Source: Spirochaetota bacterium (GTDB taxonomy: Bacteria > Spirochaetota > UBA12135 > COTS27). From it: a DNA stretch of 64,000 nucleotides. Position numbers and translations under genes: made by a program. Below, one piece after another: positions 7,328 through 50,492 of the stretch. The stretch spans positions 951,638-1,015,637 of the forward strand of contig AP019861.1 of NCBI GenBank assembly GCA_013426755.1, read 5' to 3'. Below the pieces are notes generated by a model. It saw nothing but the letters and a program-made list of their open reading frames with translations. It ran no database searches and was not told the origin of the DNA. Position 1 is the first letter of the stretch, and the number at the start of each line of letters is the position of its first letter.

Positions 7328-8854
7328 ATGAAGTCTCATACTCTCCGTCCGTATCTTTCTAGTGAAAAGTTAGCTAAACCTGATGAACTCGCTTACAAAT
7401 TGGCTACACTGGCTTGTAGCAAAGTGCAGCCTACTCCTGAAGCCGTGCAGATGGTTAAAAATCGTATCATTGATAACACCGCTGTTGCTATTGCTGCCCT
7501 TAATGATCGTCCTGTAATCATCGCACGTGAAATGGCACTTGCGCACCCTGCTAGAAATAGCCAAAGGGGTGGATCGCCTATTATTGGCGTCGATGCTAGC
7601 GATTCCCTCGTTTCGCCTGAGTGGGCAGCATGGGCCAATGGCACCGCAGTAAGACAACTTGATTTCCATGATACATTCCTTGCGCGTGATTATTCGCACC
7701 CAGCAGATAATATTCCGCCCCTCTTAGCCGTCGCCCAAAGCCGCTTGCTCTCAGGCGAAGCTCTAATATCAGCAATTCTCGTTGCTTACGAAGTGCAAGT
7801 CGCTCTCGTTAAAGCAATATCACTTCATCAACATGCCATAGATCACATCGCCCATTTAGGTGTGAGCGTTGCTGCTGGATTGGGAAAATTGTTAAATCTC
7901 GATCACGAGGTCATTTATCAAGCTATACAACAAGCCCTTCACGTAACGGTCACCACCCGCCAGTCACGAAAAGGACAAATCTCTTCCTGGAAAGCGTACG
8001 CACCTGCTCACGCAGGAAAATTAGCCATCGAAGCCATCGATAGATGCATGCGCGGTGAAGGCGCCCCCAGTCCTATTTATGAAGGTGAAGACAGTGTTCT
8101 AGCACAGGTCCTAGACGGGAAAGATGCACGCTATGAAATATTTCTTCCAGAACCCAATGAACCACTTCTAGCTATATTAGAAACATATACCAAAGAACAT
8201 TCCGCAGAATACCAGGCGCAAGCACTTATTGATCTCGCCTTCGAAATAAAAGCACAGCTAACAGACCTAAGTTCGATTGAGACTATTGTTATTCATACCT
8301 CCCATCACACACATAAAGTCATCGGAACAGGTTCTGGCGATCCTGAAAAATTTGACCCGCATGCCTCACGTGAAACACTAGACCATTCTATCATGTATAT
8401 CTTTGCTGTCGCACTAGAAGACGGCGCCTGGCATCACATTACTTCTTATACACCTGAGCGCACTAATAAGCCATCGACGATTGCCTTGTGGAAGAAAATA
8501 AGCACATGCGAAGACCCTAAATGGACTGAAGCTTATCATGCCCCCGATCCTAAAGAAAAAGCCTTCGGAGGAAGTGTCGTCGTAACGCTAAAAGACGGCA
8601 CCGTGCACCACTTTGAAAAGCGCATTGCCAACGCCCACCCCAATGGAAAACGCCCCTTCATCTATGAAAATTACGCTCACAAATTCAAAACATTGACAAC
8701 CGATCGCTTAACAAAAGAGACACAAGACCTGTTCCTAACAACTGTTTCGCGGTTAGAAGACCTCACATCCGATCAATTGCTTGCTCTTAATGTCTCCATT
8801 CCTAAAGCTACGCTCCAATCATCAGGCACCGCAGAAAAAGGATTGTTTCAATAA
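7328..8854 (+). CDS. prpD: 2-methylcitrate dehydratase (PrpD/MmgE family)
   Basis: Cytoplasmic enzyme dehydrating 2-methylcitrate to cis-2-methylaconitate in propionyl-CoA oxidation. At 508 residues it has full family length, with PrpD landmarks: WANGTAVRQLDFHDTFLA, YSHPADNIPPLLAVAQ, AYEVQ, and KAYAPAHAGKLA. The C-terminal GGSVVVTLKDGT and ANAHPNGKRPF also fit. It is first of three same-strand genes, 78 bases ahead of prpB. No separate AcnD-type aconitase or regulator is adjacent, so the hydration to 2-methylisocitrate must rely on an aconitase elsewhere. Confidence 0.92.
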   Translation: MKSHTLRPYLSSEKLAKPDELAYKLATLACSKVQPTPEAVQMVKNRIIDNTAVAIAALNDRPVIIAREMALAHPARNSQRGGSPIIGVDASDSLVSPEWAAWANGTAVRQLDFHDTFLARDYSHPADNIPPLLAVAQSRLLSGEALISAILVAYEVQVALVKAISLHQHAIDHIAHLGVSVAAGLGKLLNLDHEVIYQAIQQALHVTVTTRQSRKGQISSWKAYAPAHAGKLAIEAIDRCMRGEGAPSPIYEGEDSVLAQVLDGKDARYEIFLPEPNEPLLAILETYTKEHSAEYQAQALIDLAFEIKAQLTDLSSIETIVIHTSHHTHKVIGTGSGDPEKFDPHASRETLDHSIMYIFAVALEDGAWHHITSYTPERTNKPSTIALWKKISTCEDPKWTEAYHAPDPKEKAFGGSVVVTLKDGTVHHFEKRIANAHPNGKRPFIYENYAHKFKTLTTDRLTKETQDLFLTTVSRLEDLTSDQLLALNVSIPKATLQSSGTAEKGLFQ

Positions 8855-8932
8855 ATTTATTTCCAAGGACAGCGCCCATTCATTTAAAACCTAGAACCCT
8901 AAGAAGCTAAGCACCTAAGAACCTAGTATCAC

Positions 8933-9859
8933 ATGTTATTTAATAGGAAAGAACCACGTGCTATTCGTGCTGATTTTAGAGCAGCATTGAAAACGGATGC
9001 CTTGCTTAGACTGCCAGGGGCGTACGCTCCGCTTATTGCAATGGCTATTGAGCGTATTGGTTTTGAGGGCGTGTATGTTTCTGGCGCGGTTATGGCGAAT
9101 GACCTTGGCTACCCGGACATTGGCTTGGTAGGACTCGAACAAATAGCAGCGCGCAGTCATCAAATCGTTCGTGTGACAAAATTGCCTGTTCTTGCTGACG
9201 TGGATACGGGGTTTGGTGAGAGTATGAACTTCGCACGAACAGTACAGCTCATGGAAGAAGCAGGGCTCACGGGAATTCACTTAGAAGACCAGACCAATCC
9301 TAAACGATGTGGACATCTGGATAACAAAGAACTTGTTCCCATTGAAACAATGGTTAGAAAAATAGAAGCGGGACTCCGTTCTAAACGTGATGATAACTTT
9401 CTTATTATGGTCCGCTCCGATGCACGTGGTGTCGAAGGAATGGAACACATGCTAAGACGTATCAAAGCTTACGAAGCAGCGGGAGCTGAGGCTATCTTTC
9501 CCGAAGCACTTCAAAGTGAAAAAGAGTTCGCTACCGTTAGAGATAATATCAATGTGCCTCTGCTCGCCAATATGACCGAATTCGGTAAAACTAAACTTCT
9601 CGATGCACAAACACTTCACCGCCTTGGCTACAATATGGTCATTTATCCTGTGACCACACAACGACTGGCTTTAAAGAATGTGATCACAGGACTTGAAACT
9701 ATTGATAAAACTGGGTCGCAAAATTCTATCCTAACAACCATGCAAACACGCAAAGAACTTTATGATCTTGTTCGCTACCAAGATTATGAAGTGTTTGATA
9801 AAGATGTTTATAATATTGGTGTAGATCAATTAACGACTGCTGATGAAAAAAAAGAATAA
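8933..9859 (+). CDS. prpB: 2-methylisocitrate lyase
   Basis: Splits 2-methylisocitrate to pyruvate and succinate, the last step of the methylcitrate cycle. The 308 residues are typical. VLADVDTGFGES carries the metal-binding aspartates and KRCGHLD (about 124-130) the catalytic cysteine loop of the isocitrate lyase/PEP mutase superfamily. GAYAPLIAMAIERIGFEGVYVSGA is the PrpB-type N-terminal phosphate/substrate region. The ATG at 8933 lacks a clear ribosome binding site. Second gene of prpD-prpB-prpC. Confidence 0.93.
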   Translation: MLFNRKEPRAIRADFRAALKTDALLRLPGAYAPLIAMAIERIGFEGVYVSGAVMANDLGYPDIGLVGLEQIAARSHQIVRVTKLPVLADVDTGFGESMNFARTVQLMEEAGLTGIHLEDQTNPKRCGHLDNKELVPIETMVRKIEAGLRSKRDDNFLIMVRSDARGVEGMEHMLRRIKAYEAAGAEAIFPEALQSEKEFATVRDNINVPLLANMTEFGKTKLLDAQTLHRLGYNMVIYPVTTQRLALKNVITGLETIDKTGSQNSILTTMQTRKELYDLVRYQDYEVFDKDVYNIGVDQLTTADEKKE

Positions 9860-9969
9860 AACAAGAGAATAAGACTAAAACCAGTCATTTATAATAATAT
9901 AGGCTTAATTTCTATTATAGATGCATAACATAACGATAATACAATCAATTGTTTGAGGATTTTGAAGTC

Positions 9970-11094
9970 ATGACGGATATAAAAAAAGGCCTGCAAGGTG
10001 TGATTGCCGATACGAGTGCTATTTCACAAGTCGTTGCAGAGACAAGTACACTTACATATCGTGGGTACAAGGTATCAGACCTATCAGAGCATACGTCGTT
10101 TGAAGAAGTCTGCTGGTTGCTGTTATATGGAGAATTGCCGACTGAGGCGCAATTGGCTACGTTTAAATCAGAAGAACGCGCAGCACGGCAATTGCCAGCC
10201 AATGTTGAAAAAATGCTCGCTCATTTCCCATTAACGTGCCATCCTATGGATGTCATGCGCAGTTTTGTGAGTATGATCGGCATGGAAGCTGAAATGCTTG
10301 CTGATGGGATGCAGGCGGTTAAACCTGAGATGGCAATCCGGCTCTTAGGGTGTATGCCTGTATGTGTGGCATGGGATATTTGTCGCCGTTTACAAAGACC
10401 ACTCACACCGCCTGATCTAAATTTGTCAATGAGTGAAAATTTCTTTAAAATGGTCTTTGGTAAGATACCAGATCCACCGCTTGTGCGTGCTTTTGATGTG
10501 TCGCTTATTTTGTACGCGGAACACAGTTTCAATGCGTCTACTTTCACTGCGCGTATCATCACGAGTACGTTATCAGACTATTACAGTTCTATTACAGGAG
10601 CGATTGGGGCGCTTAAGGGGCCTCTTCATGGCGGTGCTAATGAAGCGGTGATGCGTATGTTTGAAAAAATTGGCACAGCCAGTGAGGCTGAAGCGTGGGT
10701 GATGAATGCCCTCCGTAATAAAGAACTTATAATGGGGTTTGGTCATCGCGTGTATCGGACAGGCGATTCGCGCGTTCCTACAATGAAAAAACATTTCCTA
10801 GAAGTCGCACGTAATAAAAATGATACTCAATTTGTTGATCTTTATGAAAATGTAGCGAGTGTTGTAATGCGCGAAAAAGGACTGCATCCCAATCTAGATT
10901 ATCCCTCAGCGCCGCTTTATTCTCTATTAGGTTTTGCAACAGACTTTTTTACGCCTATCTTCGTTATGAGTAGGTTAGCAGGTTGGTCTGCCCATATCAT
11001 TGAGCAGCAGGCTAACAATCGACTTATCCGTCCTATTTGTGCTTATACTGGAGAAGTTGATCGTGAAGTTATTCCGTTAGCTGAGCGACGCTAG
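9970..11094 (+). CDS. prpC: 2-methylcitrate synthase / citrate synthase family
   Basis: Condenses propionyl-CoA (or acetyl-CoA) with oxaloacetate. Catalytic positions are visible: histidine in GPLHGGANEA, histidine in GFGHRVYRTGDSR, aspartate in HPNLDYPSAPLY; AHIIEQQANNRLIRP is the C-terminal arginine region. The start at 9970 is preferred because GAGGA precedes it by about 10 bases and MTDIKKGLQGVIAD matches citrate synthase N-termini; an in-frame ATG at 9949 would add seven residues. Its place after prpD and prpB argues for methylcitrate synthase, though citrate synthase activity cannot be excluded from sequence. Confidence 0.88.
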   Translation: MTDIKKGLQGVIADTSAISQVVAETSTLTYRGYKVSDLSEHTSFEEVCWLLLYGELPTEAQLATFKSEERAARQLPANVEKMLAHFPLTCHPMDVMRSFVSMIGMEAEMLADGMQAVKPEMAIRLLGCMPVCVAWDICRRLQRPLTPPDLNLSMSENFFKMVFGKIPDPPLVRAFDVSLILYAEHSFNASTFTARIITSTLSDYYSSITGAIGALKGPLHGGANEAVMRMFEKIGTASEAEAWVMNALRNKELIMGFGHRVYRTGDSRVPTMKKHFLEVARNKNDTQFVDLYENVASVVMREKGLHPNLDYPSAPLYSLLGFATDFFTPIFVMSRLAGWSAHIIEQQANNRLIRPICAYTGEVDREVIPLAERR

Positions 11095-19665: not shown

Positions 19666-19790
19666 GATATTGTTTTAAGAATGTTGGGTAGATATTGCTT
19701 TAAGAATGTTGGGTAGATATTGCTTTAAGAACGTTGGGTAGATATTGCTTTAAAGACGTTCGGTAGATATTGCTTTAAGATTGAGTTTAG
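19666..19790. repeat. 25-bp tandem array, five units, overlapping the 3' end of coaDE
   Basis: GATATTGCTTTAAGA followed by A(T/C)GTTGGGTA repeats at 19666, 19691, 19716, 19741 and 19766. The last copies lie inside the coaDE coding sequence and encode its final residues and stop codon (19750-19752), so the array extends a gene tail into the intergenic region. Confidence 0.9.
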
Positions 19791-20979
19791 AAATAATTGT
19801 TTTAGCAAGGTTGCTTAGTTCTGTAAAGGCGTGGGGTGTGCTGTTATCGTATGAGAAGAGGTGTCCGTGATTGAGAGCGGAGAGGCTTTTTTTGAGGAGG
19901 CCAAGCCGTTCTTTTGCTGAGAGAGTCAGCGCTTCACGATTAGCCAATTCAGTTTTTGACAGATCGCGTGTTTGAAGGAGGCGTTTTTTTCGCTCAGTTT
20001 CACTGCAGTGAACATTGAGGACAAAGCCATTGCTTTCTTTAAGAAGGTCGTATTCAATCACCTGAGGAGCTTCTATGAGTAGGAGTCCTTGTTGGGTGGC
20101 TATGATTTGTTTGTAAGCACTGTGAATGTATGGGGCGAGTGTTTGCTGGAGGAATTGGAGGTCTTTTTTAGGATTAGGACGGTTGGGAGCAAAGATAATT
20201 TTACGAATATCTTGCTTTGAAAAAGGCGTTTTGAGTGAAAAATAGGTTGCTAGCTGCTGATTTAGCATAGGTTTTTCCCCTTGTGCTATCATTTCGTAAA
20301 GAGTGGCGACTATACTGTCCATATCAATGTGATGGGCTTCTATATTTGCCTTTTTAAGATTGGCTATGAGCTTGGGAATCAATGTTGATTTTCCTGACCC
20401 CATGCTGCCTGTGACAATGAGTTTGTATTGGTGGCGTAAGGTTTGTTCTAGTGATTGTTTGATGGGCAGGGGGACAAGTGAGGTTAGCGTTCCGCCTCTT
20501 AGTGCTAGTTTTTTGACTAGGCTAGAAGAGATGTCTTGATAGGTGCGATCGCACATAATGTAAATAACATTGGGCTTAAGGCCTAATGGTTTGAGTTGTG
20601 TTTCGTATCCGCTGTAAATCGTACGTTCATAGCTTAGGTCTTGCGTTGTTCGTAGTCCACGGATCACCGTAAAAATATTGCGTTCAATCATGAAATCATG
20701 TAAAAATCCATCCCAACTTACCAATTCAATTTTTTTCACCAGTGGCTGGCTGCTACGATTCATAGCAAAATGGGGGGTATCTGCAGTTGTGAAATGGTAA
20801 TCGATAGCTTTTTTTGTAAGAGCAAGCCGTTTAGGTAGTGGTAGCGAACTTTTTTTGTAATAATTGTCTAAAAGTACAATAATAAGGCTATCATCACAAA
20901 GGGTGAGCGCCTTCTCAATGACATTCAAATGTCCGTATGTGAGCGGGTCTGCTGAGATTGGAAATAGGGCTTGTTTCAT
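19750..20979 (-). CDS. Bifunctional phosphopantetheine adenylyltransferase / dephospho-CoA kinase (CoaD-CoaE fusion)
   Basis: One 409-residue chain holding the last two steps of coenzyme A synthesis. Residues 1-165 are a bacterial-type CoaD: FPISADPLTYGHLNVI (nucleotidyltransferase start with the GH motif), TVIRGLRTTQDLSYE and DISSSLVKKLALRGG. Residues about 185-400 are CoaE: P-loop GSMGSGKST (about 190-198), HIDMDSI, LLLIEAPQVIEYDLL, and NVHCSETERKKRLLQTRD. Separate bacterial CoaD and CoaE are about 160 and 200 residues, so both domains appear complete and no stop or frameshift lies between them. The fusion parallels animal CoA synthase in domain order. The tail is encoded by a 25-bp repeat. 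Confidence 0.9.
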   Translation of the reverse strand: MKQALFPISADPLTYGHLNVIEKALTLCDDSLIIVLLDNYYKKSSLPLPKRLALTKKAIDYHFTTADTPHFAMNRSSQPLVKKIELVSWDGFLHDFMIERNIFTVIRGLRTTQDLSYERTIYSGYETQLKPLGLKPNVIYIMCDRTYQDISSSLVKKLALRGGTLTSLVPLPIKQSLEQTLRHQYKLIVTGSMGSGKSTLIPKLIANLKKANIEAHHIDMDSIVATLYEMIAQGEKPMLNQQLATYFSLKTPFSKQDIRKIIFAPNRPNPKKDLQFLQQTLAPYIHSAYKQIIATQQGLLLIEAPQVIEYDLLKESNGFVLNVHCSETERKKRLLQTRDLSKTELANREALTLSAKERLGLLKKSLSALNHGHLFSYDNSTPHAFTELSNLAKTIISKLNLKAISTERL

Positions 20980-37686: not shown

Positions 37687-38183
37687 TGTTATTAAAACTT
37701 TGTGACGGCAATAACGAAACAAGCAAATGACTGCGTCTACTATTATTTCATGGTGGGTGTGACAGTCCGTTGTTAGAAACAATTCTTCATTGTATAAAAT
37801 TTATGTTAGAATGTGGGGTATTTTACGCTACGGAGATAAAGGTTAGCTGGATTTGAGTTTGCGGTTACTAAGGGGATGAAATTATATACAATTCATTCAA
37901 TCGCTTTCATGTCATATTAGAGGATATTGTGTACAATTTAACGTTTAATACCCATAAAAAGCGTATTTTCAATGTAGTGTGCAATTTTTCTTATTTTACA
38001 ATAGAAAAGTGGTTTGTATGAATGATTCTAGCTTCCTATATTAATATCATTAATATAAGGCAGGGGGCTTAAAGGTTATGGCAATCAGCGATTAAAACAG
38101 CACTAGTATAATGGCAATCATAGTAGCAATCAATTCTTAAAACATCAGCAGAAACCTAAGTGGTGGCAGTCAGCTATTAAAAT

Positions 38184-38275
38184 AAAACTACCATTGAAAC
38201 AGGACTACCATTGAAATAAAACTACCATTGAAATAGAACTACCATTGAAATAAAACTACCATTGAAATAGAACTA
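38184..38275. repeat. 17-bp tandem array
   Basis: ACTACCATTGAAATA(A/G)A repeats at 17-base steps from about 38187 (38187, 38204, 38221, 38238, 38255). Around it, ACCTAAGTGGTGGC appears twice (about 38153 and 38344) and AATATCACTAGTA also recurs, so most of the 683-base gap 37687-38369 is repeat-derived. No gene seen. Confidence 0.85.
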
Positions 38276-38369: not shown

Positions 38370-40139
38370 TCAATCAAGGTGGAAGATTCCTGTTGCAATG
38401 GTTGTCGCTGCGCCTGTCATAAAGATTTCATTGAGGTGGGGCTCTTCGGTTGTGTGGAGGGCGGAGGGATCTGTCTCTTCTGAAATGGTATGAGTACTAG
38501 AAGAAGGAGAAGCAGAATAAGGAGGAGAAAGAGGAGGTGGTGTCCAGTCAATGGTTAAAACTCCCCCTTTCAGGGCAATTTGATAAGAACGTTGTGATTT
38601 TGGCGTTTCTTTGTGAGACGGTGTGCGATTTTGGGATGATGCGTGATTTTGGGACGATGCGTGATTTTGGGACGATGCGTGATTTTTTTCTAGATTTTCT
38701 AGTTTTTCTAGCTCCATAGCAATGGCAACAACTGCGGCACAGGCGGCTGTTCCACAAGAAGCGGTCTCTCCGACACCGCGTTCAATGACGTTTAAACTGG
38801 CGTACGCAGGACCTGTGAGAGAGTTTCTATGAGAATTGATTGAATTTTTAGAATCTCTGGTATTGGGACTGTCAAAAGTGGCGTTGCTGGAGGAATTGGG
38901 GTGTATTTTTCTTAGAAAACTCACATTAACGCCATTAGGAAAGAGCGTTTTTTCATTCTGTAGTGCAGTGGCGTAGTTTATGTCTGTTTGTGAAAGAGCT
39001 GCTACTGGAATTGTGTTTTGCTCTTTTTCTAGTGTTGCGATTGTATTAGAGGGTATATGGGAAGTTGTATTAGAGGAGATATTGGGAGGTGTATTGGTAT
39101 TGGGAGGTTTATTGAGGTTTGTATTAGAGGGAATATGGGGAGGTGTATTACTATGGGCTAGGTTTGTATGAGAATTGGTGTCTTGTTCATGATGGTTTGT
39201 ATGGGGGTTAATATTTTGAGGGTTAATATTTTGAGGATTGATGTTTTGAGTGTTAGTATTTTGGGGGTTAGTATTTTGAGGGTTGATATTTTGGGGGTTG
39301 ATGTTTTGAGGGTTGATGTTTTGTTTGTGAGTAGGGTTGGAAATGGACATAGCCATAGGAATAATGGCGTGTGGATTGCCCATTGAAACAAAAAATCCTG
39401 TCCGTCCATTGAATTGAAACCGCTGCAGGCAATTTTTAGCAGAGGCAGGGGAGTCCTGCGCTACAAAATCGGCACTTGCAACCTGTGGTTTCCCCATATT
39501 GACGCGTACTAGGGCAGTTGTCGTGTCATTTTCAATCAATTCTGTACGAATCAATCCCGCTGCGGTATCAAAAGTACAACATTGATGACGATGGTAACGA
39601 TTGTCATAAAGGTATTTGGCGACACAACGAACGGCATTACCGCACATTTCAGCAATGCTGCCATTGGCGTTGTAAATGGCTAGATTGAAATCGGCGGCTT
39701 GAACGGTTGTAGTTTTGATGAGAATCAATCCATCCGCACCTAGTCCGTATTCTTGACTGCACAGTTGTGCTATCTTTTTTGTATCAATTGAAGGGGAATT
39801 GAAAGAATCATCTGAAAGTAAAGAATCATTTGAAAGATCAATTGAAGGGACACTTGAAAGATTATTTGAAGGGCAATTTGAAGGATAGGGTGGATTGGAC
39901 GTTTCAATGGCGGTAGTAGTGATTTGGGTAGCGATTGCGGTAGGGGTTGAATGAGGAGTTAAATTTTCTGAATTTTCAGTGATTGTATGGTTATGGACAT
40001 GTGATTTGGGGTGGGATGTGGAAGTGGGAGGTTGCGAACGAGAAAGCTTCTGGGTAACAATATTGGAAAGATCGCTAACAATAATGAAACTATTGCCTGT
40101 TCCATGCATTTTAGAAAATTGAACTTCGATCATAGCCAA
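38370..40139 (-). CDS. dapF: Diaminopimelate epimerase with five low-complexity insertions
   Basis: Converts LL- to meso-diaminopimelate for lysine and peptidoglycan. All active-site segments are present: SKMHGTGNSF, YNANGSIAEMCGNAVRC (first catalytic Cys), VSMGNPHAI, GVNVSFL, RGVGETASCGTAACA (second catalytic Cys), GGVLTIDW and MTGAA. Family length is about 275; this is 589. The extra 300-odd residues sit between core segments: about 29-117 (Ser/Thr/Pro/Asn), about 255-370 (repeats of NINPQ, then PSNT-like), a short Asn/Ser stretch, NHASSQ three times, and a Ser/Pro/Thr loop. The frame is unbroken throughout, so it is likely functional. Confidence 0.9.
   Translation of the reverse strand: MAMIEVQFSKMHGTGNSFIIVSDLSNIVTQKLSRSQPPTSTSHPKSHVHNHTITENSENLTPHSTPTAIATQITTTAIETSNPPYPSNCPSNNLSSVPSIDLSNDSLLSDDSFNSPSIDTKKIAQLCSQEYGLGADGLILIKTTTVQAADFNLAIYNANGSIAEMCGNAVRCVAKYLYDNRYHRHQCCTFDTAAGLIRTELIENDTTTALVRVNMGKPQVASADFVAQDSPASAKNCLQRFQFNGRTGFFVSMGNPHAIIPMAMSISNPTHKQNINPQNINPQNINPQNTNPQNTNTQNINPQNINPQNINPHTNHHEQDTNSHTNLAHSNTPPHIPSNTNLNKPPNTNTPPNISSNTTSHIPSNTIATLEKEQNTIPVAALSQTDINYATALQNEKTLFPNGVNVSFLRKIHPNSSSNATFDSPNTRDSKNSINSHRNSLTGPAYASLNVIERGVGETASCGTAACAAVVAIAMELEKLENLEKNHASSQNHASSQNHASSQNRTPSHKETPKSQRSYQIALKGGVLTIDWTPPPLSPPYSASPSSSTHTISEETDPSALHTTEEPHLNEIFMTGAATTIATGIFHLD
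39198..39340. repeat. 15-nt coding array in dapF
   Basis: On the plus strand GGGTTAATATTTTGA and variants repeat every 15 bases, encoding NINPQ/NTNPQ pentapeptides on the minus strand. The unit length preserves the reading frame, unlike the intergenic arrays. A second dapF array at about 38628-38690 repeats 18 nt (GTGATTTTGGGACGATGC) and encodes NHASSQ. Confidence 0.93.
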
Positions 40140-40159
40140 TGGGAGTGTATTTTGTCAAC

Positions 40160-40400
40160 ATGTAAAAATTCTAGCAATGATGATATGTATTGTGAATATG
40201 TGAAGATTCTAGCAATGGTGATACGTATTGTGAATATGTGAAGATTCTAGCAATAATTGTACGTATTGTGAATATGTGAAGATTCTAGCAATGGTGATAC
40301 GGATTGTGAATATGTGAAGATTCTAGCAATGGTGATACGGATTGTGAATATGTGAAGATTCTAGCAATGGTGATATGCATTGTGAATATATAAAGATTCG
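40160..40400. repeat. 38-bp tandem array upstream of dapF, about six units
   Basis: TGTGAATATGTGAAGATTCT followed by AGCAATGGTGATACGGAT repeats at 38-base steps (for example 40201, 40239, 40277). It begins within about 20 bases of the dapF start codon, so any dapF promoter must lie inside or beyond it. Confidence 0.93.
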
Positions 40401-40609
40401 CATTTTTACTGTGATTTTGTACTCAATAACCCTAAGAATGCAGTCTGCGATTTCCTGCTCTCTAACGATAAGAGAGCAATGAAATGACAGGAAGTAAAAA
40501 CAGGAGTGTATGTGTGGATAGCAATAAAACACTAGCCATAAAAATACCAGTCATAAAATAACGACTATTGTCAAAATAACGACTATTGTCAAGACGATAT
40601 ATTGTCAGA

Positions 40610-40860
40610 ACAGCAAAGCAATTGAAAAGCAAGGCAATTAAAGGGCGAAGCAATCGAGAAGCAAGGCAATTAAAGGGCAAAGCAATTGAAAAGCAAGGCA
40701 ATTAAAGGGCAAAGCAATTGAAAAGCAAGGCAATTAAAGGGCAGAGCAATCGGAAAGCAAGGCAATTGAAAAACAAGGCAATTAAAGGGCAGAGCAATTG
40801 AAAAGCAAGGTAATTGAAAAACAAGGCAATTAGAATGAACAGGCGATCGAATAAACCATC
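40610..40860. repeat. 32-bp tandem array downstream of rpsD
   Basis: A 32-base unit containing GGCAATTAAAGGGC, AAAGCAATTG and AAAAGCA repeats at 40641, 40673, 40705 and 40737, then degenerates into shorter AATTGAAAA(G/A)CAAGG pieces up to the rpsD stop. The segment 40540-40600 has a doubled AAAATAACGACTATTGTC. The whole gap 40140-40858 is repeat material with no credible gene. Confidence 0.92.
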
Positions 40861-43504: not shown

Positions 43505-46363
43505 ATGACAAAGACAATGAACGGTTCTATGCAGCGTAGTGAACGTGCTGTGATGCAGTCGTATTTGAATCGTTTTGAGGCGCAGGTTTCAATTCAGGCG
43601 CCACATTCAGCTTGTCGTACTTTAGCGACCAAAATGACCTTTTTTAAAGCACAAATTCGTCTTCTTCCGCAGACGTCGGGTGTTTATAAAATGCTCGATA
43701 AAACGGGAAAAATCATTTATATTGGCAAAGCTAAGAATTTACGTCATCGCGTAGCCTCTTATTTCCATGCCAGACAAGACCGGCTTGTGACACAATTGCT
43801 CGTCACACGCATTCAGGCGCTTGATTACGTTGTAACAATTACGGAAAAAGACGCTCTTATATTGGAAAACATCCTTATTAAACGTCATCAGCCTTTTTTC
43901 AATATTGATCTGAAGGACAAAAAGACATACCCTTATTTATGGTTGACAACCCATGAAAAATTCCCACGTTTGGTTAAAACGCGTGAAGTGACCGACCAAG
44001 GCACGTATTTCGGTCCCTATACAGACGTGAAAAAAGTCAATGTTTACTTGGATGTTCTCAATTCGTTATTTGCTCTCAAAAAATGCCGGCAGACACGCTT
44101 TCCAAAGGGGTTTAAGCCGTGTTTGTACTATCATATCGGTAAGTGTTTAGATTACTGTACAGGGTCTGTTACTCAGGAGACAATTCAAGCACTTAATTCG
44201 GAAATCAAGACCCTATTACGCGGCAATCTACAAGAAGTTGTGCTTAAATTAGAGGAAAAAATGAAGCAAGCGAGTGCCAATCTCAATTATGAACTTGCTC
44301 TTACCATTCGCAATGCCTGTACAACGCTTAAAGCCATTGATTCTGAGCAGACAATCAGTACGTTCAAGGAAGACAGTTTTGATGTTTTTCATTACAATGT
44401 TTCAGCAGGTTGGTTAGTCATTTCATTGCTCATGTTCCGTGGCGGACGTTTGGTCGATAAAGGAATCTTTCAATTTAAAAATGCGCTCTGGGGCTCGGTA
44501 GCAGAACATTCGGCTAAAACAATTGAGGATACAGAGAATATTACAGAACATACGGCAGAAAATACGGCAGAGCATACTGCAGAAAACACCGCAGAGAACA
44601 TTGAAATTGAAAATTTTAAGGAGGTCTCCGCTCAGAATTTCACAGGGCATAACGCTAAGATTTTCTTCGAAAAATCTGCTGAGGAAATTGAATCCGAATT
44701 ATCACCTCGTCCAAATCCAGTAACACCACATAAAAATAAGACTTCAGACCCCAATTCATCCGCAGTTTCAACTTCAACTCCAACTCCAACCTCAACTCCG
44801 ACCTCAACTTCAACTCCAACCTCAACTTCAATTCCCACAGCAGAGGAAATCTCCTCACTACCCGAGACCAACGGTGCCAATGAAGAAAATCTCTTTGCCA
44901 CAGCAGAACGACTGCAATTCATTGTCGAGGCATTTTCACAATTTTTCTTTGAATACTACCAGACAAATGACGATTCTATAGGTTATATTGTTTTGCCAGA
45001 AGACTTATTGAATGCCCAGGGAGCACGTGAATTGCTGACGAACACGATTCGTGAGGCACGTACTCTATCACAATCACATGCCGCTATAAAGCCACTTCAT
45101 GAAACTGATGAAGCTGAGACAACTAAGGTTATAGCCAATGCAGTGAATAATAAAGACGAAGCAATGTTAACACCCCCTCCTGCACCAGCAACGAATCAAG
45201 CTAACGAAAAACAGTCTAAACAACAATCTAAGGAAGGATTGACTCCCTCAGCACCCGCTCCACCTGTAAAAACGATGAAATCAAAGCAGTCGGCAACGGT
45301 GGATTCAGAAAACATCACTTTAACACGGGGCAGGAAGCGGCAGCACACCCACGTAGGAGCGGACTCATCAACCCATCATAGAGACATTTTTTCAGATTCT
45401 CACCGGGGGAGTGAAGGGTTACCTTCCTCACCTGCACCCAAAACTTCTTCTGATGCCGCGTCAATAATCAATGAGCAGCACGAAATAGCTGCAAATTCTA
45501 CTCCTTCTATTAAAATACCTAATCTTATTACGGGACTTAGAGGCCCTAAGAAGCGATTTTTAAAATTGGCGAAAGCAAACGCAGACCAATCTTTTTATAA
45601 CATGCTTTATCAGCATAAAAAACAACAATATCTCAAACGGCTTAAAGAAGTTTTGAATTTGGATAAAATTCCAAGTATTATCGATGCTTTTGACGTTGCC
45701 AATACAGGAGATCGGAATCTGGTAGCGGCGTGTGTCCGTTTTGTCGATGGCAATCCCGATAAACAGCACTATCGGTTATTCAATATTCAATCGACACAGC
45801 AGCAGAATGACTTTTTGAGTATGGCGGAAGCGGTGTATCGGAGGTATCATCGATGGTCGAGTACAGAAAAATCAGGCTTATTACCGCAATTGATTCTCAT
45901 CGATGGCGGAAAAGGACAGCTCAATGCTGCACATAAGAGTCTTATCAAGCTAGGATTACGGCATATTTCATTGATCGCGCTTGCCAAGCAAGAGGAACTC
46001 GTTTTTACTTTGACACAGCAAAAGCCTATTGCTATAAAGCATACCGATGAAGCACTTCGATATTTGGTACGTGTCCGCAATGAAGTTCATCGCTTTGTCA
46101 ATAAACACCACAAAAACAGACGTGATAAAGAAATGTTAAAGAGTAGTTTCAGCCAGATTCCTGGACTAGGTCCTAAGAAAATCAATACGCTTCTCACTCA
46201 TTTCGACAGTCTAGCGGGGCTTAAATTTTCTTCACGTGAATATGTGACAAGTCTTCCTTATATTGGGAATAAAGACTACGATCTGCTTATAGAATTCTTT
46301 AAAAAACAGCGCAGTACCTCACAGCAATCAGCCATTTCTATACACTCAACTAATCTAAAATAA
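43505..46363 (+). CDS. uvrC: UvrABC system subunit C, expanded by low-complexity inserts
   Basis: Dual-incision nuclease of nucleotide excision repair. From Met44 (43634) the family N-terminus is clear: QTSGVYKMLDKTGKIIYIGK (GIY-YIG nuclease), then the cysteine-rich CLYYHIGKCLDYCTG, the UVR helix near residue 250, the RNase H-like nuclease (SIIDAFDVANTGDRNLVAAC, LPQLILIDGGKGQLNAA) and C-terminal helix-hairpin-helix (SSFSQIPGLGPKKINTLL). Usual length is about 600; this is 952. One insert (about 335-465) is built of HTAENTAE and TSTPTSTSTP repeats, another (about 540-680) is Ser/Thr/Lys-rich; both lie between the UVR part and the second nuclease. The extra 43 N-terminal residues may not be translated. 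Confidence 0.92.
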   Translation: MTKTMNGSMQRSERAVMQSYLNRFEAQVSIQAPHSACRTLATKMTFFKAQIRLLPQTSGVYKMLDKTGKIIYIGKAKNLRHRVASYFHARQDRLVTQLLVTRIQALDYVVTITEKDALILENILIKRHQPFFNIDLKDKKTYPYLWLTTHEKFPRLVKTREVTDQGTYFGPYTDVKKVNVYLDVLNSLFALKKCRQTRFPKGFKPCLYYHIGKCLDYCTGSVTQETIQALNSEIKTLLRGNLQEVVLKLEEKMKQASANLNYELALTIRNACTTLKAIDSEQTISTFKEDSFDVFHYNVSAGWLVISLLMFRGGRLVDKGIFQFKNALWGSVAEHSAKTIEDTENITEHTAENTAEHTAENTAENIEIENFKEVSAQNFTGHNAKIFFEKSAEEIESELSPRPNPVTPHKNKTSDPNSSAVSTSTPTPTSTPTSTSTPTSTSIPTAEEISSLPETNGANEENLFATAERLQFIVEAFSQFFFEYYQTNDDSIGYIVLPEDLLNAQGARELLTNTIREARTLSQSHAAIKPLHETDEAETTKVIANAVNNKDEAMLTPPPAPATNQANEKQSKQQSKEGLTPSAPAPPVKTMKSKQSATVDSENITLTRGRKRQHTHVGADSSTHHRDIFSDSHRGSEGLPSSPAPKTSSDAASIINEQHEIAANSTPSIKIPNLITGLRGPKKRFLKLAKANADQSFYNMLYQHKKQQYLKRLKEVLNLDKIPSIIDAFDVANTGDRNLVAACVRFVDGNPDKQHYRLFNIQSTQQQNDFLSMAEAVYRRYHRWSSTEKSGLLPQLILIDGGKGQLNAAHKSLIKLGLRHISLIALAKQEELVFTLTQQKPIAIKHTDEALRYLVRVRNEVHRFVNKHHKNRRDKEMLKSSFSQIPGLGPKKINTLLTHFDSLAGLKFSSREYVTSLPYIGNKDYDLLIEFFKKQRSTSQQSAISIHSTNLK

Positions 46364-49586: not shown

Positions 49587-50492
49587 TTAAGATTTGCTTA
49601 GTTTTTGGGCTTGATTTTTGATCGCTTCGATGCGTGGAATGAGTGGTTGGAGTTGCTGCCATGTTTGTTGTTTGAGGACAGGTTCGTCAACTAATTCTTT
49701 GGGATGGTGGGTGTAGACAATGTCAATACCTTTATAACGATGAATGTTGTGATTTGTATGAGGTGTGGAATGCGGCGCAGTGGAAAATAGCGTCTTAAAG
49801 TCACTGCGGTGAGTGAGCAGCTTATAAGTGTCTTCACCAAAGGCAATGATAAGCTCTGGTTTGACGAGGGCAAGTTCTTCAGCTAAGTAGTGAAGACAGA
49901 CTTCAATGATGTCGAGTTGATTAGAAATTTCCGTTGTCGATGAACACTTAATGGCTGTAGAAATGTAAATTTCTTTAGGGTCTAGGTTGAGTGCTTTAAG
50001 GATTTTTAAGAGTAGTTCGCCATCTTGGGTAGTGAAGTTTTTGCCGTGCAGTTGGTCATTCCAATTCACAATATCTAAAAGTAGCATAATAGGAAGACTG
50101 TAGGAACGATTGAGTGGGGGTGGATTGTGGCGACTTTGATGAAGTTTGCATTGGGTACAGGTGGTTATTTTTTTGTGGAGGGCTGTTAATGGTGAAGAGG
50201 GAGATTGCTGTACAACTGTAGAGCGCGAGGACGTTTTATTTTGCTGCTGCGGTGGAAGAACGGTAGACGAACGTGCTTGTGAATTAGGTTTTTGTGAGTT
50301 ATGATCTTGCTGGAGTTGTTTGTAATGACGGAGCAGGTTATCGCCCAGTTTTAATGAAGGTCGAATACCAGCTAAATTTGTGATCGAGGTCTTTGTTACA
50401 GGATAGGAACGGGGAAGTTCATTGAGATACGTGTAAATTTTCCGTAAAACTGTCCGATGCGCTAAGGGAAGAGGAATTTTACTCATTATCAC
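49587..50492 (-). CDS. Family 4 uracil-DNA glycosylase-like protein with divergent active site
   Basis: Residues about 110-290 match the iron-sulphur UDG family: cysteines in CTQCKL, then IKCSSTTEISNQL and EVCLHYL for the 4Fe-4S cluster, VKPELIIAFGEDTYKLL, and IVYTHHPKELVDEPVLK (HP motif). The catalytic GEAPG..E...G.PFVG line is replaced by LLDIVNWNDQLHGKNFTTQD, so glycosylase activity is uncertain. The N-terminus adds about 100 residues with a Gln/Ser-rich part. It may act on other lesions or simply bind DNA. Confidence 0.65.
   Translation of the reverse strand: MIMSKIPLPLAHRTVLRKIYTYLNELPRSYPVTKTSITNLAGIRPSLKLGDNLLRHYKQLQQDHNSQKPNSQARSSTVLPPQQQNKTSSRSTVVQQSPSSPLTALHKKITTCTQCKLHQSRHNPPPLNRSYSLPIMLLLDIVNWNDQLHGKNFTTQDGELLLKILKALNLDPKEIYISTAIKCSSTTEISNQLDIIEVCLHYLAEELALVKPELIIAFGEDTYKLLTHRSDFKTLFSTAPHSTPHTNHNIHRYKGIDIVYTHHPKELVDEPVLKQQTWQQLQPLIPRIEAIKNQAQKLSKS

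Follow-up and report, generated by a model that had tools for sequence, protein, structure and literature searches.

The dapF locus and its surroundings

The window (the whole stretch of 64,000 nucleotides analysed here) lies in a bacterial genome of 2.68 Mb and 40% GC that is assembled as one contig. Its minus strand carries an open reading frame for diaminopimelate epimerase (DapF) that runs through 589 codons with no internal stop and whose codon-3 ATG lies at window 40131-40133 (Table 1). A genome-wide search found this to be the only dapF copy. The flanks of the gene are array-rich too: tandem arrays account for 73% of the sequence over 719 bp upstream and for 24% over 587 bp downstream. 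Two other genes of the window, uvrC and a family-4 uracil-DNA glycosylase gene, encode proteins longer than their models; uvrC contains coding arrays with units of 24 nt (44532-44596) and 18 nt (44768-44835), and one 18-nt array encodes TSTPTS. RpsD, also encoded in the window, is of normal length.

Table 1. Window coordinates of dapF, its catalytic codons and inserts, the flanking arrays and two enlarged neighboring genes.
Feature	Position	Strand	Description
dapF, diaminopimelate epimerase	38370..40139	-	589 codons; first codon TTG; ATG at codon 3
First catalytic Cys codon	39642..39644	-	motif EMCGNAVRC (MCGNAVRC); column invariant in 67 DapF
Second catalytic Cys codon	38754..38756	-	motif ERGVGETASCGTAACA (ASCGTAACA); column invariant in 67 DapF
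Insert 1	39792..40034	-	ORF residues 36-116, 81 aa; 18- and 24-nt arrays at 39802-39886
Insert 2	39018..39353	-	residues 263-374, 112 aa; follows VSMGNPHAI
Insert 3	38817..38909	-	residues 411-441, 31 aa; follows NVSFLR; low complexity without clear array
Insert 4	38592..38705	-	residues 479-516, 38 aa; lengthens the helix after the second catalytic Cys
Insert 5	38439..38549	-	residues 531-567, 37 aa; rich in Ser, Pro and Thr, with no clear array; lies between the final strands of the core
Intergenic array, 37-38-nt unit x 6.9	40137..40399	.	76-/114-nt higher-order units; directly upstream of dapF
Intergenic array, 32-nt unit x 6.9 (48-nt alternative)	40608..40832	.	upstream of dapF
Intergenic array, 17/34-nt unit x 5.9/2.9	38176..38275	.	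downstream of dapF
uvrC	43505..46363	+	952 aa vs 574 in the model; open frames of class relatives have 640-762 aa
Family-4 uracil-DNA glycosylase	49587..50492	-	301 aa vs ~184 in the model; match starts at residue 103

The catalytic core of DapF

By model and by fold the frame encodes a genuine DapF. It scores 168.7 bits against the NCBIfam equivalog model TIGR00652, above the curated cut-off of 114.65, and 111 bits against Pfam PF01678, and the DapF model aligns to the swollen protein in two pieces. In a MAFFT alignment with 21 relatives from the phylum (278-325 aa) the conserved segments are complete and in order, and a 67-sequence alignment shows that both Cys motifs are kept along with the conserved Asn, Glu-Arg and Gly. 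AlphaFold2, given the window DapF and 66 DapF sequences from fetched loci, predicts core blocks mostly at 80-95 pLDDT and inserts mostly below 50; in its numbering (ORF minus one), values below 50 span residues 38-114, 264-374, most of 415-440 and parts of inserts 4 and 5. A Foldseek search of the PDB with the predicted structure returned DapF structures at the top (best E 1.5e-18), and all 26 of its best matches are structures of DapF or of O-ureidoserine racemase, a related enzyme (TM by target 0.65-0.81), in agreement with a two-domain DapF fold. Because this core is intact, the swollen DapF is probably enzymatically active.

Five inserts and their repeats

The sequence-only reading of this DNA had described a DapF doubled in size by repeats placed in loops around an intact core. 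The MAFFT alignment bears out the architecture: 299 residues fall into five inserts and 290 into the core, and the predicted structure maps the inserts onto low-confidence segments between confident core blocks. Insert 1 follows the second core strand and its short helix and precedes the next core helix. The two arrays named in that reading are present, i.e., a 15-nt array encoding NINPQ in insert 2 (39205-39323, 7.9 copies, nested in a 60-nt unit) and an 18-nt array encoding NHASSQ in insert 4 (38627-38686, 3.3 copies, 97%); insert 2 has a second array, of 24 nt, at 39041-39095. The description of the inserts as made of repeats holds in part, since recognisable arrays account for a fraction of the insert sequence and the remainder is low-complexity sequence in which no clear period can be made out. 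Array coverage of dapF is 350 nt; when codons were permuted within each insert, it averaged 12 nt and peaked at 116 nt (0 of 200 shuffles reached the observed coverage), so the repeats are not a by-product of the composition, which is strongly skewed to Ser, Asn, Pro, Thr, His and Gln.

The earlier statement that no similar bacterial DapF was known stands within the 149 genomes of the phylum that we searched. A DapF match was found in 118 of these, and the interruption is unique to the present genome; other full-length DapF frames are of 265-391 aa, apart from frames of 1245-1450 aa in which a contiguous DapF domain is part of a fusion (genomes G069, G080, G085, G110 and G145). A profile search of genome contigs with the DapF alignment, from which records of the genome itself may have been excluded, returned no near relative. 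In a genome of the same family but of another genus (G001), the loop that holds insert 3 is expanded by ~15 aa of unrelated sequence.

Tandem arrays throughout the genome

In a 704-kb sample of stretches from the genome, tandem arrays occur at ~780 per Mb and occupy 8.4% of bases, as against 58 per Mb and 0.4% of bases in a control of 80 loci from other bacteria and 6 per Mb in a Markov simulation. The poorest locus of the swollen genome is 1.0% array, and the median of the other bacterial loci is 0. Arrays occupy 24.4% of noncoding but 2.5% of coding DNA, a difference of about ten times, and tandem repeats form a large share of the noncoding DNA, in the manner of Ehrlichia ruminantium. The same-family genome has 480 arrays per Mb (3.8% of bases), an order-level relative (G002) 94 per Mb and a class-level relative (G003) 19 per Mb.

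Array periods vary widely, with units mostly of 12-30 nt. Coding and noncoding arrays agree in their medians, 18 nt for the period and 2.5 for the copy number, which points to one mutational source acting inside and outside genes, followed by a filter on reading frame. The filter is visible in the periods modulo 3: coding arrays divide 96/0/4 among remainders 0, 1 and 2 and noncoding arrays 141/146/120 (chi-square P = 3e-27), and the coding arrays of the same-family genome divide 33/1/0.

Other enlarged proteins

Forty ORFs were drawn at random, 23 of which had a usable NCBIfam model. Nine of the 23 exceed their model by more than 60 aa (HflX, LysA, a RarA-like protein, PyrG, LigA, a KDO transferase, ProS, MnmE and ApbE), lengths being measured from the first start codon, so that N-terminal excess is possibly overstated. 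LigA has 980 aa against 664 in the model, MnmE 617 against 446, PyrG 649 against 526 and LysA 527 against 417, and several conserved proteins are swollen more strongly than DapF. The KDO-transferase-like ORF (locus L127, 9311-13972, minus strand) is more extreme than DapF, at 1553 aa against ~425, and contains in-frame arrays of 18, 45, 51, 72 and 252 nt. MutS is expanded, to 1016 aa; PolA is nearly insert-free, and SerS, YaaA, aspartate kinase and FloA are of normal length. Since some proteins are swollen and others normal, tolerance for inserts differs between proteins.

In the same-family genome, MutS and UvrC are expanded at the same sites as here, as is the DapF loop noted above, by unrelated sequence, and GlmU has 622 aa against 452. 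The swelling process is thus genome-wide and probably family-wide, and the earlier treatment of the inserts as a peculiarity of DapF was mistaken.

Divergence and selection within coding arrays

Adjacent copies in coding arrays differ by 19.4, 15.9 and 19.8% at codon positions 1, 2 and 3, and copies in noncoding arrays by 21.1, 21.3 and 22.3% at matching positions. Position 2 changes slightly less, and the inserts are therefore not wholly free of constraint. Among single-base codon differences 67.6% are nonsynonymous, against 70.3% expected, giving a dN/dS-like ratio of 0.88. The mean hydropathy of coding arrays is -1.1 and that of the stop-free frames of noncoding arrays +0.37, a gap that suggests that hydrophobic insertions are removed from genes. 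Identical copies are seen in ~10% of the arrays in coding DNA and ~16% of those in noncoding DNA, and array formation therefore looks recent or continuing.

Taken with the predicted disorder and the frame-blind arrays of noncoding DNA, the near-even divergence across codon positions and the ratio of 0.88 favor two of the interpretations offered in the sequence-only reading, tolerated noise and a by-product of slippage, though not as properties of DapF in particular. We consider DapF very probably to be an ordinary epimerase whose five surface loops have taken up ~300 residues of disordered filler that derives from repeats and is tolerated, as one case of the genome-wide process. Short tandem duplications of any period occur throughout the genome and would arise in place, probably via replication slippage or misalignment. 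Those that survive in genes would be the ones that keep the frame, open no stop, sit in a length-tolerant loop and encode hydrophilic residues, and the filler would then drift almost neutrally, blurring into low-complexity sequence.

The inserts might instead have been selected, as length-variable or sticky disordered loops that confer new interactions, localisation or phase-separation properties. The strong Ser/Asn/Pro/Thr/His/Gln bias, far more hydrophilic than noncoding stop-free frames, would agree with this, as would the loop sites partly common to the same-family genome and the slightly lower change at codon position 2; a filter on solubility alone, however, would leave the same hydrophilic bias, the insert sequences are not shared with that genome, the dN/dS-like ratio lies at 0.88 and the same arrays also crowd noncoding DNA, where they ignore frame. 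We regard selection for the inserts as unlikely.

Very unlikely, in our estimation, is that dapF is a decaying relic with a non-working product, expanded because it is no longer constrained. The protein is far from the normal DapF length, and beside the second Cys the usual CGTGA is replaced by CGTAA. Yet half of the sequence is repeat-born and the 589 codons contain neither a stop nor a frameshift, the catalytic segments are all intact, the genome has no second dapF, and it also encodes LysA, which acts directly after DapF in the pathway and is expanded as well.

Mobile repeats can also enter genes in frame: Rickettsia palindromic elements are dispersed, palindromic mobile repeats found in frame inside conserved bacterial proteins. 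We think it extremely improbable that the DapF inserts are selfish elements of this kind, or inteins. One repeat family, with the core GATGAACGCAGATAAACACAG (GATGAACGCAGATAAACACAGAT), is common to ~15 sampled arrays, and purely local slippage would not yield that family, but almost all other units are locus-private (417 units of at least 15 nt fall into 390 clusters) and their periods are wide-ranging. The DapF inserts are head-to-tail arrays of differing units, and neither Pfam nor NCBIfam matches an intein or other domain within them, which places them outside such families. Tandem arrays are difficult to assemble, but an assembly or sequencing artefact, including an error at 39198-39340, has a negligible chance of accounting for the inserts, because 96 of 100 coding arrays preserve the frame, many arrays consist of no more than 2-3 diverged copies and the separately assembled genome of the same family shows the same pattern.

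Repair genes and the source of the duplications

This genome (G000) and the other repeat-rich one (G001) both have genes for MutS, MutL, the PolA 5' nuclease, RecA and XseA, so the rate of tandem duplication is not explained by a simple loss of repair, whether of mismatch repair, the PolA 5' nuclease, RecA or exonuclease VII. Neither these two genomes nor G002, all three of one order, yield a RecJ match, and the remaining 18 of the 21 genomes searched do; SbcD is unmatched in the two repeat-rich genomes and patchy across the phylum. Among the 21, the repeat-rich pair are the only genomes that match neither RecJ nor SbcD, an association that, in two related genomes, is only a lead to the cause of the repeats. 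G002 also has no RecJ match yet is repeat-poor, so that RecJ loss alone is insufficient and at most contributory.

Relation to known systems

The phylum appears to be Spirochaetota: FlaA (PF04620), the sheath protein of periplasmic flagella, has three matches in the genome and is found in 20 of 21 genomes (this one and its relatives) and in none of 14 controls, and a SpiroCoCo protein occurs among the randomly drawn ORFs. In Leptospira interrogans, 42 satellites have been counted in 4.3 Mb, all with long repeats and partly in transposed families (PMC6749651). If the phylum is as we infer, the two share it, together with satellites in both intergenic and coding DNA; here, however, the arrays are far denser and their units mostly short and mostly private, a comparison across differing counting rules (PMC6749651).

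The nearest known case is Ehrlichia ruminantium, whose tandem repeats are said in PMC10710844 to expand and contract actively, by a process targeted to noncoding DNA (Collins et al., 2005; Frutos et al., 2006; both as cited there). Like the present genome, that of E. ruminantium has a small coding fraction and is pervaded by tandem repeats that lie mostly outside genes (PMC10710844). E. ruminantium belongs to another phylum and its process is described as noncoding-targeted (PMC10710844), whereas here arrays also take up ~2.5% of coding sequence and the swelling extends to many housekeeping enzymes.

For the proteins themselves a likeness is found in a eukaryote. Housekeeping enzymes of Plasmodium falciparum carry Asn-rich low-complexity inserts. 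Non-globular, low-complexity regions of its proteins are open to much drift (PMC3197514), and non-globular low-complexity inserts in conserved proteins are what the two organisms share. P. falciparum, however, is a eukaryote with nearly 80% AT in its coding regions (PMC5389722), and the present organism is a bacterium of 40% GC in which the units, mostly of 12-30 nt, are longer than those of short microsatellites. The arrays described here also differ from Rickettsia palindromic elements, which are dispersed, in being locus-private and head-to-tail.

On balance we lean towards a broader reading, in which runaway minisatellite formation in a family-level, probably spirochaetal lineage has remodelled the housekeeping proteome, leaving about two in five conserved enzymes with long, near-neutral, disordered inserts. 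Such a proteome would be a match, in bacteria, to the low-complexity one of Plasmodium, and the process may have begun once exonucleases (RecJ and SbcD, for example) had been lost. A literature search that covered few subscription journals found no published report of the lineage, and a bacterium with housekeeping enzymes swollen so widely is undescribed in the literature thus covered.

Eukaryotic parasites have usually supplied the arguments on how low-complexity sequence enters essential enzymes; in the present case one bacterial genome displays the whole route, from frame-blind noncoding arrays through frame-filtered genic arrays to near-neutral drift, and mutation and selection become separable by counting. 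The genome also offers a natural test of how much disorder DapF, LigA and UvrC can bear while still working. Genomes of this kind may be under-called by domain models and by estimates of completeness, since their conserved domains are split; the estimated completeness is 75.7% for the single 2.68-Mb contig, and our guess is that this low value is tied to the split domains.

Further features of the window

A 2-methylcitrate cycle cluster at window 7328-11094 (plus strand) encodes PrpD, PrpB and a methylcitrate/citrate synthase, all of normal length. CoaD (phosphopantetheine adenylyltransferase) had been considered as a further swollen protein, at 409 aa against 155, and was dropped, the 409-aa ORF (19750-20979, minus strand) being a fusion of CoaD with the dephospho-CoA kinase CoaE (PF01121) in an arrangement that resembles the fused CoA synthase of animals.
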